Assembly: GCF_001696615.3 (NCBI RefSeq)
Contig: NZ_CP032279.1
Span: forward strand, 2,542,001-2,606,000
DNA: 64,000 bases
Source of the DNA: Acinetobacter sp. WCHAc010034
GTDB taxonomy: Bacteria > Pseudomonadota > Gammaproteobacteria > Pseudomonadales > Moraxellaceae
Direction: 5' to 3'
Shown here: positions 42,009-45,579 of the stretch, in pieces
Layout: the number at the start of each line of letters is the position of its first letter
Numbering within the stretch: the stretch's first letter is position 1
Translations under genes and position numbers: made by a program
Notes under the pieces: generated by a model
What the model saw: the letters and a program-made list of their open reading frames with translations, nothing else
What the model was told of the DNA's origin: nothing
Databases searched by the model: none

Positions 42009-42018
42009 CATTATTCAA

Positions 42019-42052
42019 AACCCCCTCCGATAAAATCGGAGGGGGTTTTTTT
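42019..42052. terminator. Terminator of the rrn operon
   Basis: Perfect 13-base stem AACCCCCTCCGAT / ATCGGAGGGGGTT with AAAA loop and seven T. The next gene is convergent, and the symmetrical hairpin could serve both. Confidence 0.9.
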
Positions 42053-42095: not shown

Positions 42096-42509
42096 TTATA
42101 CATCTGCTGCTTTAATTGCCTGAGAAGCCTGCTTCAGCATATACAGTACTTGGCCTAGTAAAATGTCCTTTTCTGCAAGCACGATAATAATCAAAGGATG
42201 GCGGGGCGCAGCCACTGAACTCAATATGGCTTTGCCGTTTTCGGCATCCAGAGTCAGCGTTTGACAGCCGGTTAGATTAATTTCATGCGTAAAGGCGCTG
42301 ACCATTGCTAAAATTGAGCTTCCGACAGCTGCCAGCTTACTGTTATTGTAATTTTCTTTTTTGTAAATGCTGGTCAGTTCAAAGCCATCTGTAGAGCACA
42401 CCATAATAAAATGAACGCCGCGCGCGCTGCTCATAATATTCTGTATTTCTGACCTGGCTTTCTGTATCAAATGGGCGGGCGCGGCTCTGCTTTCCTGAAT
42501 GCCGAACAT
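42096..42509 (-). CDS. Roadblock/LC7-domain protein (last gene of GTPase operon)
   Basis: 137 residues. The alternating strand-helix pattern fits a roadblock/LC7 (MglB-like) fold: GVHFIMVCSTDGFELTSIYK, then SKLAAVGSSILAMVSAFTHEI, then CQTLTLDAENGKAILSSV and PLIIIVLAEKDILLGQVLYML. Such proteins dimerise and commonly act as GTPase-activating partners or scaffolds of MglA-like GTPases. A very strong ribosome-binding site (AAGGAGG) precedes it, ten bases after the GTPase stop, so both are made together. It differs clearly from the first roadblock protein of the operon. No signal peptide; cytosolic. Confidence 0.8.
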   Translation of the reverse strand: MFGIQESRAAPAHLIQKARSEIQNIMSSARGVHFIMVCSTDGFELTSIYKKENYNNSKLAAVGSSILAMVSAFTHEINLTGCQTLTLDAENGKAILSSVAAPRHPLIIIVLAEKDILLGQVLYMLKQASQAIKAADV

Positions 42510-42519
42510 GATTCCTCCT

Positions 42520-43059
42520 TCATGTAAAAATGTTATGGTTGACTTCTACTGATGTAATTAAAGCTTCTAAAAGCAGCAGGGCATCCTCTTTTTTCCGTGC
42601 GTCAATGAAGAAAAGCGGGGAAAACAGATCCTGGCTCAGCAGCCATTCTTTGTAGATATGAGTTGATTTCAGCGTGCCGTCTACGTGGGTAATGCCTATT
42701 GCAATGTTGTCTGTATAATTTTGAAAAGTTTCTAGATACTGTTCCAGTTCTTGCAATGGCGCTTCTGCATTGTGGTCAATTAAAATGATCGCGCCTATGG
42801 CGCCGCGGCAGATCACCGGCCAAATAAAGTCAAAACGGCTTTGCCCCGGTGTTCCGTATAAGCCGATTTTTAGCCCATCGTCTAAGGATACTTCGCCATA
42901 ATCAATGCCGACGGTGGTTTCAAGTTTGGCATGGCTGTGCTGATCTGTGTTGAATGCCTCTGTAAGCAATACCGGAATATCTGACAGGGAGCGGATGGCT
43001 TCGGTTTTTCCTGCGCCCATGGAGCCTGCAAAAACAATTTTGTACTGCTGAAGAATCAT
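42520..43059 (-). CDS. MglA-like small Ras-type GTPase
   Basis: 179 residues. The P-loop GSMGAGKT is at 12-19, a Thr pair in switch I (ETTVGIDYG, 48-49), the switch II motif YGTPGQSRF at 68-76, the G4-like THVD at 124-127 and a G5-like DARK near 153. The TPGQ and THVD spellings match the bacterial GTPases of COG2229/MglA type and the CvnD proteins of Streptomyces conservons. Cytosolic molecular switch; partners are presumably the two roadblock proteins beside it. Strong Shine-Dalgarno (AAAGGAGGG), 14 bases after the preceding gene. Confidence 0.86.
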   Translation of the reverse strand: MILQQYKIVFAGSMGAGKTEAIRSLSDIPVLLTEAFNTDQHSHAKLETTVGIDYGEVSLDDGLKIGLYGTPGQSRFDFIWPVICRGAIGAIILIDHNAEAPLQELEQYLETFQNYTDNIAIGITHVDGTLKSTHIYKEWLLSQDLFSPLFFIDARKKEDALLLLEALITSVEVNHNIFT

Positions 43060-43073
43060 TGTTCAGCCCTCCT

Positions 43074-44066
43074 TTAAAAGCCGAATTTTTTACGCAGCTT
43101 TCCGATAAAGCCCTGAATAAAGCCTTTGTCTGCGCTGCTTTCGGCCTGTTCAGGCGGACTGTAATGCGCATCCCAAAGATTGATTTTACTGATATTGTTT
43201 GCCGCAATGTTAGCTGCAATGAATTGCTGAATAGTGCGGATGGGAATGCCATGCTGCTCCGAGATTTTTGAAAGTTTTGCGCCTTGAATGAAGCAGGCTG
43301 AGAGCTGGAAAATCTTTTTGCGCTGCGCCTTATCTGCCGGTTTAGGCCAGAAATGAATGCGGTAGTGCCCGTCTTCGGGCGCAATCTGATAAAAATCTGG
43401 AGAATTCCAGAATAAATTCCACAGCCAGTCCTGCAGGATGGCGCTTTCTTTCCGGTCTGCTTTTGCTAAATCGGTTGTGGAAGCTAAATCGTATTTAAAA
43501 CTTAAGTCGGTCACAGGGTGCAGGCGGCGAGGGTTGGGCCAGACCGAATTCTGCGCAACGTCAATCACGGCGATGGAGCCTTGATCATCATAAAGGTGCA
43601 GTTTGCTTGGCGGCGCACCGGTCAGCATTTGCCTGAAAAACCGTTCATTGAGCGGCTGGGCATCATGCTTTGGTGCACGATTGTCAGCGGCTTCCGGCTG
43701 TATTGGCACGGAAGAGGTATTCTGGCTGGCTGGAAGGCTTTGCATAATATGCTGCTCAAGCCAGCGGTACAGCTCTTTGGCATTCAGCAGGGGGAAATAC
43801 AGGGTGTTGTTCTGCACTGTGCTGCTGAGTTGGGCGTCCTTGGATATTTTCAGCCATGGAAAGCTTGTCCGGTTCAGGAGCTTCTGCATGCCGTCAGTGT
43901 TAAAAAAGGTTTCATGAATGAATAAGCAGTCTAAATGCAGGTCAGAGGCTTTTTTCCAGTGGATAATTAAATTGTCCGGCATTATATTGCAGAGCTGATT
44001 TTTTAATTCCGCAGAGTCCTGAATATTCAAACCAGCAATAGCAATATTAATGTACTGCTTATTCAT
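43074..44066 (-). CDS. Unknown protein of GTPase-roadblock operon, putative C-terminal HTH
   Basis: 330 residues, no family recognised with certainty. The first 105 residues show alternating hydrophobic strands and helices (YINIAIAGL, NLIIHW, LDCLFIHETFF, LYFPLL), compatible with a degenerate receiver or flavodoxin-like fold. Residues about 106-140 are a polar linker. A central mixed region contains KLHLYDDQGSIAVIDVA. Residues about 262-296 read as a helix-turn-helix (AKLSKISEQHGIPIRTIQQF). A basic tail (LRKKFGF) ends it. Conservon CvnC proteins (DUF742) also end in a winged-helix-like unit and sit between the roadblock and GTPase genes, as here; homology is only inferred. An attenuator-like hairpin lies upstream. 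Confidence 0.7.
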   Translation of the reverse strand: MNKQYINIAIAGLNIQDSAELKNQLCNIMPDNLIIHWKKASDLHLDCLFIHETFFNTDGMQKLLNRTSFPWLKISKDAQLSSTVQNNTLYFPLLNAKELYRWLEQHIMQSLPASQNTSSVPIQPEAADNRAPKHDAQPLNERFFRQMLTGAPPSKLHLYDDQGSIAVIDVAQNSVWPNPRRLHPVTDLSFKYDLASTTDLAKADRKESAILQDWLWNLFWNSPDFYQIAPEDGHYRIHFWPKPADKAQRKKIFQLSACFIQGAKLSKISEQHGIPIRTIQQFIAANIAANNISKINLWDAHYSPPEQAESSADKGFIQGFIGKLRKKFGF

Positions 44067-44118
44067 ATTATCTCTCCATCAAATTCTGGATTATGATTTT
44101 GAAATAGCTGGGAGTTAA

Positions 44119-44146
44119 AATCCCCTTTATGCCGATAAAGGGGATT
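44119..44146 (-). promoter_or_regulatory. Attenuator-like hairpin inside the GTPase operon
   Basis: Perfect 12-base stem AATCCCCTTTAT / ATAAAGGGGATT with a four-base loop, followed on the minus strand by TTAAC (GATTTTAAC overall). It lies between the first roadblock gene and the HTH-like gene, so it may lower downstream expression or protect the upstream mRNA 3' end. Confidence 0.65.
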
Positions 44147-44153
44147 GCCTGAA

Positions 44154-44513
44154 TTAGCTGAAATCCAAATTCTTTTCATAGGCTTTCAGTTCATGGCGCG
44201 CCATGGCTAAATTCGCTTTAGCGCGGTCGAGCACCAGATACAGAAAGACATTTTCATTTTTTTCCAGCGGCCTGATTAAGTGGTACTGTTTCCCTAAAGT
44301 AATAAGAATATCAACAATATGGTCGTTCAGGTTCAGTGACTGAGCGACGCGCCTTTTGGACCGGATAACTTCTGTATTTCCCGCTGCTGCAAGTTCTAAG
44401 TCAATATCTCCTCCGCCTTGAGTTGCGAGAGCGAGGCCGCTTTCGCTGTCTACCAGGGCTGCTGCATGAAAACCGTCAATATTGGTGAGTGAATCTAATG
44501 AAACTTTGGCCAT
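44154..44513 (-). CDS. Roadblock/LC7-domain protein (first gene of GTPase operon)
   Basis: 119 residues. It starts like an MglB/roadblock domain: [22 protein letters not shown], then [41 protein letters not shown] and the strand [22 protein letters not shown]. Expected to dimerise and bind the GTPase at 42520-43059. AGGGAG precedes the ATG. A consensus promoter is at 44602-44629. Because a hairpin follows, this protein may be made in excess of the other three. Confidence 0.82.
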
Positions 44514-44934
44514 ATATTTCTCCCTCTTTTTTGGTTATGCATGATTATTGGTTTTTTATCCAAGCATGTATTTAACGTGCTGTTAAGCTCTGCTTTATTT
44601 CATTATAGAAAGGCGGAAAGCGTTTTCAACGGAAATATTTTAATGCGGTAAATGGATAATATTTTTTGGCGCACTGCTGGATCAGCTTCAAATTTTAAAT
44701 GTGATTTGATCGTCAGTTTGTTTTGCACTATGTGCTTTGCGCGGTGAAATTTGAGTAAATTAGTCGGGAAAAGCAGCATGTAAGGAAATGTAACAAGGCG
44801 GCTATTTTTAGGGAAAGCGCTGCCTGAGTGGTTTTGTGATACAAAAAATAACATGGAGTATTTTTTAAGCGGTTATCCTGAATTTTGGCAATAAAAAACC
44901 AGGCTGGCCTGGTCTTTATTCTCTGCAGAAATAC
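44514..44934 (-). promoter_or_regulatory. Intergenic region with promoter of GTPase-roadblock operon
   Basis: About 420 bases without a supported gene. On the minus strand TTGAAA (44629-44624), 16 bases and TATAAT (44607-44602) make a near-consensus sigma-70 promoter, with a 5' UTR of roughly 80-90 bases. The rest is AT-rich; one 83-codon open frame has no family features. Confidence 0.75.
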
Positions 44935-45579
44935 TTATGCAAACATGCTGCAGGCCGCTGAATATAAAATCCAGAGGATGGCGAGGGCGACCGCCGGTTC
45001 CAAAACTTTAGACCAAAGCGGAACTGCTGCAACTGCTTCATCCTGTTCCTGATGGGTGTGCTGACTGACCATTTGACTGAACTCCTTCATAGATGCTTCC
45101 AATGATATCTCATCTTGGATGACGGGTTTTGAGCCTTTCAGCTCTGAAAGGCTATTTGCTGACCAAACCCAATCCTCGGCCTGGCCGGATAAATGCTCAA
45201 TTTGCCCCAGCAGCAGTTCGCGGATGCTTTGCAGGTTATGATTTCCAGTATCATGCAGCTGCTTAAGTTCGTGCAGCTGCAGGCTGAAAATCGCTGCGGT
45301 CAATGCCTCCAGCTCGGCATGGGGCAGCGGGGAAGCATTTTCTTTGGACGTGGTTAAGTGGCGCGCGACGTCCTGTATATACAGCTCATCCGGCTCAGTG
45401 ATTTCCTGATACACTTTTTTATCGTTGGCGCGCCATTGGGTAATCAGTTCGCCTAAAGTCAGAGCGTTGATTGCGGCAATATGATGGCGCCTTTCTTCCC
45501 GGGGAAACTGGCTGAGAAGCTCAGGCTGATGAGTTTCTATCTGTTCCGCAAAGTATTGCACGAGGTCAAAAGCCATCAT
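44935..45579 (-). CDS. Tail-anchored protein of unknown function
   Basis: 214 residues (Met1 and Met2 both possible). Soluble, charged and helical for about 190 residues (FPREERRHHIAAINALTLGE, HAELEALTAAIFSLQLHELK), then one hydrophobic helix at the extreme C-terminus (PAVALAILWILYSAACS). No signal peptide, so the topology is tail-anchored with the bulk in the cytosol. No family recognised. It lies just downstream of sspB on the same strand, 15 bases away, and may be co-transcribed with sspA-sspB. Confidence 0.7.
   Translation of the reverse strand: MMAFDLVQYFAEQIETHQPELLSQFPREERRHHIAAINALTLGELITQWRANDKKVYQEITEPDELYIQDVARHLTTSKENASPLPHAELEALTAAIFSLQLHELKQLHDTGNHNLQSIRELLLGQIEHLSGQAEDWVWSANSLSELKGSKPVIQDEISLEASMKEFSQMVSQHTHQEQDEAVAAVPLWSKVLEPAVALAILWILYSAACSMFA

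Follow-up and report, generated by a model that had tools for sequence, protein, structure and literature searches.

What kind of system is encoded by the four consecutive minus-strand genes found in a stretch of DNA from Acinetobacter sp. WCHAc010034, and what might each of its proteins do? The stretch, here called the window, comprises 64,000 nucleotides of contig NZ_CP032279.1 (positions 2,542,001 to 2,606,000), and the genes encode two roadblock/LC7 proteins (RB1 and RB2), an MglA-type GTPase, and a protein of 330 amino acids (P330). An initial annotation described them as a conservon-like operon. All four genes were found where it had placed them, and their order of transcription is RB1, P330, GTPase, RB2. 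Its sequences place the locus among the Group 3 MglA systems, which makes it a relative of conservons and not a conservon. For its mechanism, we lean slightly toward a reading in which P330 would load the GTPase, RB2 would be the GTPase-activating protein (GAP), and RB1 would be a partner without GAP activity. The genes are as follows.

42096..42509, minus strand: RB2, roadblock/LC7 protein of 137 amino acids, Asp-Gly pair kept, probable GAP
42520..43059, minus strand: GTPase, MglA-type small GTPase of 179 amino acids (open reading frame [ORF] list, Pfam, alignment, and tree)
43074..44066, minus strand: P330, 330 amino acids, with receiver-like N-domain, variable linker, winged-helix-like C-domain, and basic tail (ORF list)
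44154..44513, minus strand: RB1, roadblock/LC7 protein of 119 amino acids (ORF list; Robl_LC7 E 0.0023)

Gaps of 14 bases separate P330 from the GTPase gene and 10 bases the GTPase gene from RB2. The GTPase scored above the Pfam cut-offs of PF03029 and PF00071. The roadblock matches were weak, both lying below the curated cut-off (RB1, E 0.0023; RB2, E 0.0013), and the HTH_23 match of P330 (E 0.004) was likewise weak and below the Pfam cut-off. Among 142 fetched GTPase loci, P330 was recognized in 122 and stood directly before the GTPase gene in 113 of the 122, so that the genes proved to be kept together elsewhere, as the annotation's proposed neighborhood survey required. The commonest order was P330-GTPase-RB2 (41 of the 142 loci), followed by the window's order, RB1-P330-GTPase-RB2 (27), then by P330-GTPase-RB2-RB1 (21), P330-GTPase (11), and GTPase-RB2-P330-RB1 (6). 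These counts are not independent events, since possession of the GTPase was the criterion for choosing loci, some loci are closely related, and a few contigs occur twice. The four genes are a real, conserved unit, beyond chance.

Class of the GTPase and of the locus

Prokaryotic MglA GTPases have been divided into five groups, of which Group 3 is almost limited to beta- and gammaproteobacteria (Wuichet and Sogaard-Andersen 2014, PMC4316618). For Group 3, that study describes a conserved neighborhood in which the MglA gene is accompanied by one or two genes for MglB and by a gene for a protein whose N terminus is receiver-like and whose C terminus is a winged helix, with a variable linker between them. 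The window GTPase has the intact P-loop and TPGQ switch that had been noticed at the outset (G1, GSMGAGKT; G3, LYGTPGQ), and every GTPGQ position was kept in at least 43 of 45 Acinetobacter rows. Its G2 reads ETTVGID, with Thr where Group 1 has Arg, and each Thr was present in 43 of the 45 rows. G4 reads THVD, a departure from [NT]KxD, with His for Lys in all 45 rows, and G5 reads DARK (D in 45, A in 44, and R in 45 of the 45). These motifs match Groups 2 to 5, and the combination of DAR with a Lys-less G4 matches Groups 2 and 3. Neither Group 1 hallmark was present, as G3 has GTPGQ and not TVPGQ and G2 has Thr and not the Arg finger.

The phylogeny agrees with the motifs. In a tree of 47 rows, hand-selected from larger sets with no PMC4316618 sequences included by name, the window GTPase fell into a proteobacterial clade with Stenotrophomonas and Neisseriaceae (33 rows, support 100/99). 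The conservon GTPases (CvnD) formed a separate clade (7 rows, support 100/99), and the window GTPase was not among them. The neighboring proteins also have Group 3 features. RB2 carries the Asp-Gly pair of the one or two MglB proteins, the adjacent P330 has a winged-helix-like C-domain (helix-turn-helix [HTH] matches below cut-off; DUF742 and MarR profile similarity), and the layout of P330 fits that of Group 3, the receiver part less firmly than the rest. Because the GTPase lies outside the CvnD clade, its G4 is THVD and not the NxFD of conservons, and the architecture is the published one of Group 3, the locus is not a conservon. The label conservon-like is thus apt for an MglA/roadblock module that is related to conservons and has no CvnA; it goes too far where it implies a conservon proper.

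The roadblock proteins and the domains of P330

MglB proteins coupled to Groups 2 to 5 share an Asp-Gly pair, and its Asp is predicted to be close enough to MglA to interact with it (PMC4316618). A pattern-based count of this pair left 104 of 133 RB2 sequences unassigned, and alignment columns were counted instead. At these columns, RB2 sequences had Asp in 134 of 135 cases and Gly in 135 of 135. None of 73 RB1 sequences had the Asp (Ser in 68, Thr in 3, Asn in 1, Ala in 1), and the Gly was kept in 72; in the window RB1, Ser replaces the Asp of the pair (DSESG). Since RB1 lacks the Asp and RB2 has it, one GAP and one non-GAP partner are suggested, and we infer that the GAP is probably RB2, with RB1 as a partner lacking this activity. 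The two distinct roadblock proteins of the initial annotation are therefore unequal at this column. Its proposal of a heterodimeric GAP or an asymmetric pair divides accordingly: the pair looks unequal, and the heterodimeric GAP gains no support, as RB1 is without the Asp predicted to be near MglA.

Another roadblock-like protein, of about 212 amino acids and with a weak roadblock match (e.g., L157 5543-6181), recurred beside the GTPase in 39 fetched beta- and gammaproteobacterial loci, where a 120-amino-acid form of RB2 co-occurred with it. In the window's genus, it was found in one genome, G077, which has a four-gene module (L102) plus a separate locus of this type (L122); it was present neither at the window nor at the second copy of the module described below.

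P330 was divided into the following parts.

43731..44066, minus strand: receiver-like N-domain of P330, residues 1 to 112, with FP in place of the distant relatives' usual KP; border inferred from the alignment
43074..43469, minus strand: C-domain of P330, residues 200 to 330, winged-helix-like, similar to CvnC/DUF742
43077..43124, minus strand: C-terminal tail of P330, GFIQGFIGKLRKKFGF, candidate membrane-targeting helix

Two sets of P330 sequences were compared. The near set consisted of 144 rows (142 distinct) from Acinetobacter and its closest relatives, and the distant set consisted of 67 rows (64 distinct), including L117, L119, and L120 from the window's family and L173, which is named Moraxellaceae. 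A profile built from the N-domains of 20 distant relatives gave 37 PDB matches at E <= 10. The top two were designed TIM barrels, and 26 were response regulators (E 0.022 to 1.9), among them EvgA, YycF, AdeR, PmrA, and PhoP. A Lys preceding a nearly invariant Pro was found in 48 of the 67 distant sequences, L119 and L120 included, and in none of the 144 near sequences. If the homology holds, the missing Lys in the near set makes the window N-domain a degenerate receiver. This is what had been proposed for the N terminus, which, by way of the weak PDB matches of its distant relatives, is probably receiver-like and degenerate.

The C-domain was compared by hhalign with 20 DUF742 (CvnC) sequences, giving probabilities of 79.6% for all P330 sequences (E 1.5e-5), 77.9% for the distant set (E 1.8e-5), and 28.7% for the near set. 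The score of 32.3 was above the best of 60 column-shuffled controls (16.1). With 10 DUF742 sequences, the probabilities were 73.5% (all), 23.8% (near), 56.5% (distant), and 35.1% (whole-length profile). Against MarR helices, they were 14.7% (all), 49.4% (distant), and 3.7% (near). Some controls were flawed: of the 36 rows in the MarR set, 15 were shorter than 80 residues, an OmpR control had 3 rows, and stop signs had been removed from the receiver translations and some MarR translations before alignment. Since DUF742 itself reached 86.9% with MarR winged helices, part of the similarity between P330 and DUF742 is probably due to a winged helix common to them. In Pfam, the window P330 had no DUF742 match, and 2 of 23 relatives had one (best E 0.12). 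The proposed profile search against DUF742 thus yielded a resemblance of the C-domain and no Pfam match of the window protein; the resemblance may reflect kinship and is not proof of it. The C-terminal HTH segment that had been suspected is consistent with the weak HTH_23 match and with the DUF742 and MarR similarities; at E <= 1, HTH_40 was found in 23 of 73 P330 proteins and HTH_23 in 10 of 73.

When 1407 ORFs were ranked with the DUF742 profile, 29 P330 proteins were in the top 50 (6.6 expected). With other profiles, the numbers were 24 for MarR, 9 for OmpR, 8 for a receiver, and 1 for reversed DUF742. As a sign of kinship with CvnC, the ranking was rejected, because the MarR profile did nearly as well; what it shows is a winged helix. 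A separate observation concerns L171 3877-4974, an ORF of a gammaproteobacterium in the position of P330. It had the best DUF742 profile match outside conservon loci in the set (E 0.00085, or 0.0043 with more sequences) and no Pfam match, and it is a possible bridge to CvnC. The next match was L233 (E 0.0058), which is not a P330.

A simple basic-tail pattern was found at the C terminus of 142 of 143 near and 18 of 67 distant P330 sequences. A hydrophobic moment of at least 0.6 together with a charge of at least +3 was found in 86 of 144 near and 28 of 67 distant tails and in 44 of 919 neighboring proteins. The tail is presumably comparable to the membrane tails of MinD or FtsA.

Expression signals, neighborhood, and distribution

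Five sequence elements around and within the module bear on its transcription.

44779..44793, minus strand: direct repeat TTACATTTCCTTACA, TTACA-N5-TTACA, upstream of the RB1 promoter; candidate regulator site
44602..44629, minus strand: sigma-70 type promoter TTGAAA-16-TATAAT before RB1, 11 of 12 consensus positions
44119..44146, minus strand: terminator-like hairpin between RB1 and P330, 12 pairs, 4-nucleotide loop, then UUUU; z -3.20
44090..44118, minus strand: promoter-like site TTAACT-17-CATAAT directly past the hairpin, weak (9 of 12)
42017..42049, strand unspecified: strong hairpin separating RB2 from the convergent rRNA operon; possible terminator of the transcripts from either side

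The RB1 promoter is largely kept: in an alignment of six sspB-linked loci, TTG was present in all six and TATAAT in five. Gaps between RB1 and P330 from Acinetobacter and other family members were folded, with z scores taken against dinucleotide shuffles, and z was <= -2 in 18 of 20, the exceptions being L072 (z -1.45) and L079 (z -1.59). The 20 came from 24 listed gaps, with L074 trimmed to 150 of its 163 bases; those left unfolded were L075 (a near-copy of L074), L082, L084, and L097, and L084 and L097 had no visible hairpin. Stem sequences vary between lineages. Promoter-like sites past the hairpin were no commoner than in shuffles of the region. One promoter had been said to drive all four genes. 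The promoter is there, and a single transcript is uncertain, because the terminator-like hairpin and the weak promoter-like site split RB1 from P330. The hairpin suggests that RB1 is made in an amount unlike that of RB2, and unequal production of RB1 is its likely meaning.

The TTACA-N5-TTACA repeat occurred within 600 bases upstream in 9 of 14 four-gene sspB-linked loci and in none of the other four-gene loci from Acinetobacter, of which there were 13. Across the window's genome, the pattern was present 12 times, versus 6 for the pattern read backwards; the pattern was picked after the alignment had been inspected. It is likely a regulator site, perhaps for the regulator BfmR, and literature searches turned up no paper stating this link.

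Upstream of the module lie genes for a 214-amino-acid protein, SspB, and a GST-fold protein, the last of which is taken for SspA. The 214-amino-acid protein (44935-45579, minus strand) has a hydrophobic segment toward its C terminus and belongs to no Pfam family, and its position between sspB and the module is kept; its profile and that of SspB each matched 23 ORFs in the fetched loci. Downstream of RB2, the strong hairpin is followed by a convergent plus-strand rRNA operon (23S end and 5S gene). No further operon gene was recognized in the ORF list between promoter and terminator. A Pfam scan of 8 neighborhood ORFs found no kinase, and the operon has no CvnA histidine kinase.

Searches of genomes for the GTPase (E <= 1e-5) used genus, family, and order sets that share some genomes, and a match in them need not mean a whole module. 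Of 149 Acinetobacter genomes, 93 had the GTPase: 37 gave a single match, 50 gave two, and 6 gave three, hence 56 with at least two. In the family set, 65 of 149 genomes had it, representing 10 of 16 genera, and in the set of the order Pseudomonadales, 33 of 293 (16 of 118 genera). Among the best 80 of 590 confirmed places in a named scan, relatives were seen in Methylomonas, Snodgrassella, Variovorax, Stenotrophomonas, Leucothrix, and others. A single-sequence search with P330 gave 99 proteins, and those with an organism in their name were all from Acinetobacter; the distant P330 members were reached by an iterated profile over the fetched loci.

A second complete module (L003) lies about 630 kb away in the same genome, in the order GTPase-RB2-P330-RB1. 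Identity between the two modules is 80% for RB1, 59% for the GTPase, 53% for RB2, and 25% for P330. Paralogue trees were built from 30 of 31 rows, with the long-branch row L117 dropped. The GTPase, RB2, and P330 trees agreed on a clade uniting the sspB-linked lineage A with L082 (support 88/88, 84/87, and 98/99, respectively), and on a lineage B1 without L102 (99/97, 100/99, and 100/100). A lineage B2 was strong in the GTPase and P330 trees and weak in the RB2 tree (62/51). The RB1 tree recovered neither the sspB-linked nor the B1 lineage, possibly through gene conversion or too little signal.

Other loci show incomplete modules. At L085, L086, L087, and L088, which are second loci in four Acinetobacter genomes, P330 and the GTPase occur alone, and no roadblock gene was recognized within the fetched 12.5 kb. 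P330 is in pieces in L071 and L114, as is RB2 in L096; decay of single parts therefore seems to occur. A Neisseria gonorrhoeae record (L145 2891-5560) has P330-like and GTPase-like genes in pieces and an open roadblock gene. In Acinetobacter wuhouensis, a partial GTPase of the window's family (L153 6001-6507; 59.6% identity) lies at a record end near insertion sequence (IS) elements, on a plasmid typed as conjugative, so the gene can sit on mobile DNA. Among the recurring neighbors, mostly in other beta- and gammaproteobacteria, a phosphonate-type binding protein was seen in 24 loci, a protein with weak TPR likeness in 23, a PAS-domain protein in 22, and a CheY-like protein in 10, as if lineages plugged different sensors into the core.

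Mechanism, rival explanations, and known systems

How might the four proteins work together? In the mechanism toward which we lean, P330 would receive input via its degenerate receiver-like domain and be held at the membrane by its basic tail. Its CvnC-like winged-helix domain would be a guanine nucleotide exchange factor (GEF) that loads the GTPase with GTP, and RB2, with its Asp-Gly pair, would be the GAP that switches the GTPase off. RB1, with Ser for Asp, would be a non-GAP adaptor by which RB2 or the GTPase is tuned or placed, in the manner of the additional partners that MglB has in Myxococcus, such as MglC. The most likely candidate for the output would be surface behavior through type IV pili.

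The proposed role of P330 draws on conservon homologues. Two papers report that MfpB, which is homologous to CvnD, has MfpC, homologous to CvnC, as its GEF or likely GEF and MfpD, homologous to CvnB, as its GAP (PMC13343842; preprint PMC13015309). If the C-domain of P330 is a CvnC relative, P330 would be the missing GEF of Group 3 systems. A wider proposal is tentative, and we rate it below the mechanism itself: the winged helix of P330 would be the proteobacterial counterpart of CvnC/MfpC, and conservons and Group 3 systems would have in common a three-part core made up of a GTPase, a GAP of the roadblock type, and a GEF with a winged helix, with a receiver-like, membrane-tethered input fused to the GEF in Proteobacteria and a histidine kinase recruited in Actinobacteria. 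The published transcription-regulator view would then be wrong. The preprint describes MfpC as exclusive to Actinobacteria (PMC13015309).

Several observations weigh against the proposed mechanism. In 72 of 73 RB1 sequences, another Asp stands three residues ahead of the lost one and might serve instead, and the labels RB1 and RB2 were assigned by the better-scoring profile. The 20 N-domains used for the PDB search were 20 of 22 picked; because L135 and L140, with His for Lys, were left out, the invariant Lys of the 20 is partly a matter of choice. The receiver matches came from the distant relatives' profile and none from the window protein itself: hhalign of the P330 N-domain against 23 receivers of the same genome gave no match, and the Pfam lists for P330 proteins contained no PF00072 receiver match. 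The proposed profile check against receiver families thus gave weak matches in the PDB search with distant N-domains and none in the other two comparisons. For the C-domain, the closeness of DUF742 to MarR (86.9%), the MarR probability of the distant set (49.4%) beside the mere 28.7% of the near set for DUF742, the 20.5% obtained with a smaller alignment pair, and the high ranks of P330 with the MarR profile all blur the link to CvnC. The hydrophobic moment of the window's tail is 0.50, below the 0.6 mark. As for the output, a PilT-family match (TIGR01420, E <= 1e-60) was present in 33 of 33 GTPase carriers versus 225 of 260 others among the 293 Pseudomonadales genomes (Fisher p 0.012, in a test that ignores relatedness and with pairing done by eye), and as 258 of the 293 have such a gene, the pilus link is weak.

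Three other explanations were considered. P330 could be a transcription factor, with the GTPase and its roadblock partners controlling a DNA-binding output through the winged helix. PMC4316618 made this suggestion for Group 3 and also describes the receiver-like and winged-helix architecture, with Phyre2 support, and the HTH_40 and HTH_23 matches (23 and 10 of 73, E <= 1), the high ranks of P330 with the MarR profile, and the 49.4% MarR match of the distant set are in line with it. However, the C-domain scored DUF742 above MarR with all three P330 profiles, P330 immediately precedes its GTPase in the way that CvnC precedes CvnD, and the basic tail may be a sign of membrane attachment; we consider a transcription factor unlikely. 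It is more improbable still that the GAP is an obligate heterodimer of RB1 and RB2, with P330 as the downstream effector of the GTP-loaded GTPase. Two common gene orders (27 and 21 of 142 loci) do place both roadblock genes with the GTPase and P330, and heteromeric roadblock complexes regulate GTPases elsewhere (PMC9481161), but the commonest order (41 of 142) has no recognized RB1, though another roadblock-like gene occurs in 39 loci. The terminator-like hairpin, which suggests that the amount of RB1 differs from that of RB2, and the departure of the RB1 tree from the main paralogue split also speak against an obligate pair.

The locus could also be a polarity module proper, in which the GTPase, when bound to GTP, would mark a pole and control type IV pili in the manner of Myxococcus MglA. 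The GTPase and roadblock superfamilies are the same as in Myxococcus, all 33 carriers had a PilT-family match, and a Group 3 mglB mutant is known from Snodgrassella (PMC11112851). In that organism, a Group 3 system has an unlinked mglB, a mutation of which was accompanied by altered soft-agar spreading, attributed by the authors to type IV pili, and by better colonization of a non-native bee. Yet 56 of the 149 Acinetobacter genomes gave no GTPase match, and no pilus gene was among the six recurrent neighbor families run through Pfam, which leaves a polarity module rather doubtful. The PilT co-occurrence and the Snodgrassella mutant point weakly to surface behavior, the output considered in the GEF/GAP/adaptor mechanism.

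Group 3 MglA systems as a kind were described in 2014, and the window locus resembles them in its GTPase motifs, in having one or two MglB proteins and an adjacent protein with a winged-helix-like C-domain and a putatively receiver-like N-domain, and in its proteobacterial clade (PMC4316618). Two 1:2 MglB clades are described there, and Acinetobacter is absent from its main text. Compared with that description, Acinetobacter has whole modules duplicated in differing gene orders, Acinetobacter and its closest kin lack the receiver Lys, and RB1 belongs to a roadblock type without the Asp. New here are the second complete module in the genome, the Asp asymmetry of RB1 and RB2, the distribution of the GTPase and the duplicated and diverged modules in the genus, the recurrent hairpin after RB1, and the possible CvnC link. 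Among the papers on Acinetobacter and roadblock, MglA, or MglB proteins that were judged by titles and the beginnings of abstracts, none was a study of the locus, and in the literature examined we met no worked-out mechanism for Group 3 systems. More than one diverged module per genome, unequal roadblock types, and a possible CvnC-like exchange domain would make the GEF, GAP, and adaptor roles testable with four small proteins.

Like the window, conservons (CvnA-CvnB-CvnC-CvnD) have a related GTPase, a roadblock protein, and, encoded immediately ahead of the GTPase, a winged-helix-like protein, which in conservons is small. In contrast to them, the window operon has neither a histidine kinase nor a stand-alone DUF742 protein, and its GTPase lies outside the CvnD clade with THVD instead of NxFD. 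The Myxococcus xanthus system of MglA, MglB, and RomY (Group 1) likewise combines a GTPase, a roadblock GAP, and an extra GAP-modifying partner, RomY being a stimulator of MglB (PMC9481161). It differs in its G3, which is TVPGQ, and in its G2, which supplies an intrinsic Arg finger (PMC4316618); the window has GTPGQ and Thr. The mgl locus of Snodgrassella has a different set of neighbors, of the type with the roadblock-like protein of about 212 amino acids that is not at the window. Like the window, it has a Group 3 MglA with several MglB proteins (PMC11112851), and its locus L180 has the order P330-GTPase-RB2.

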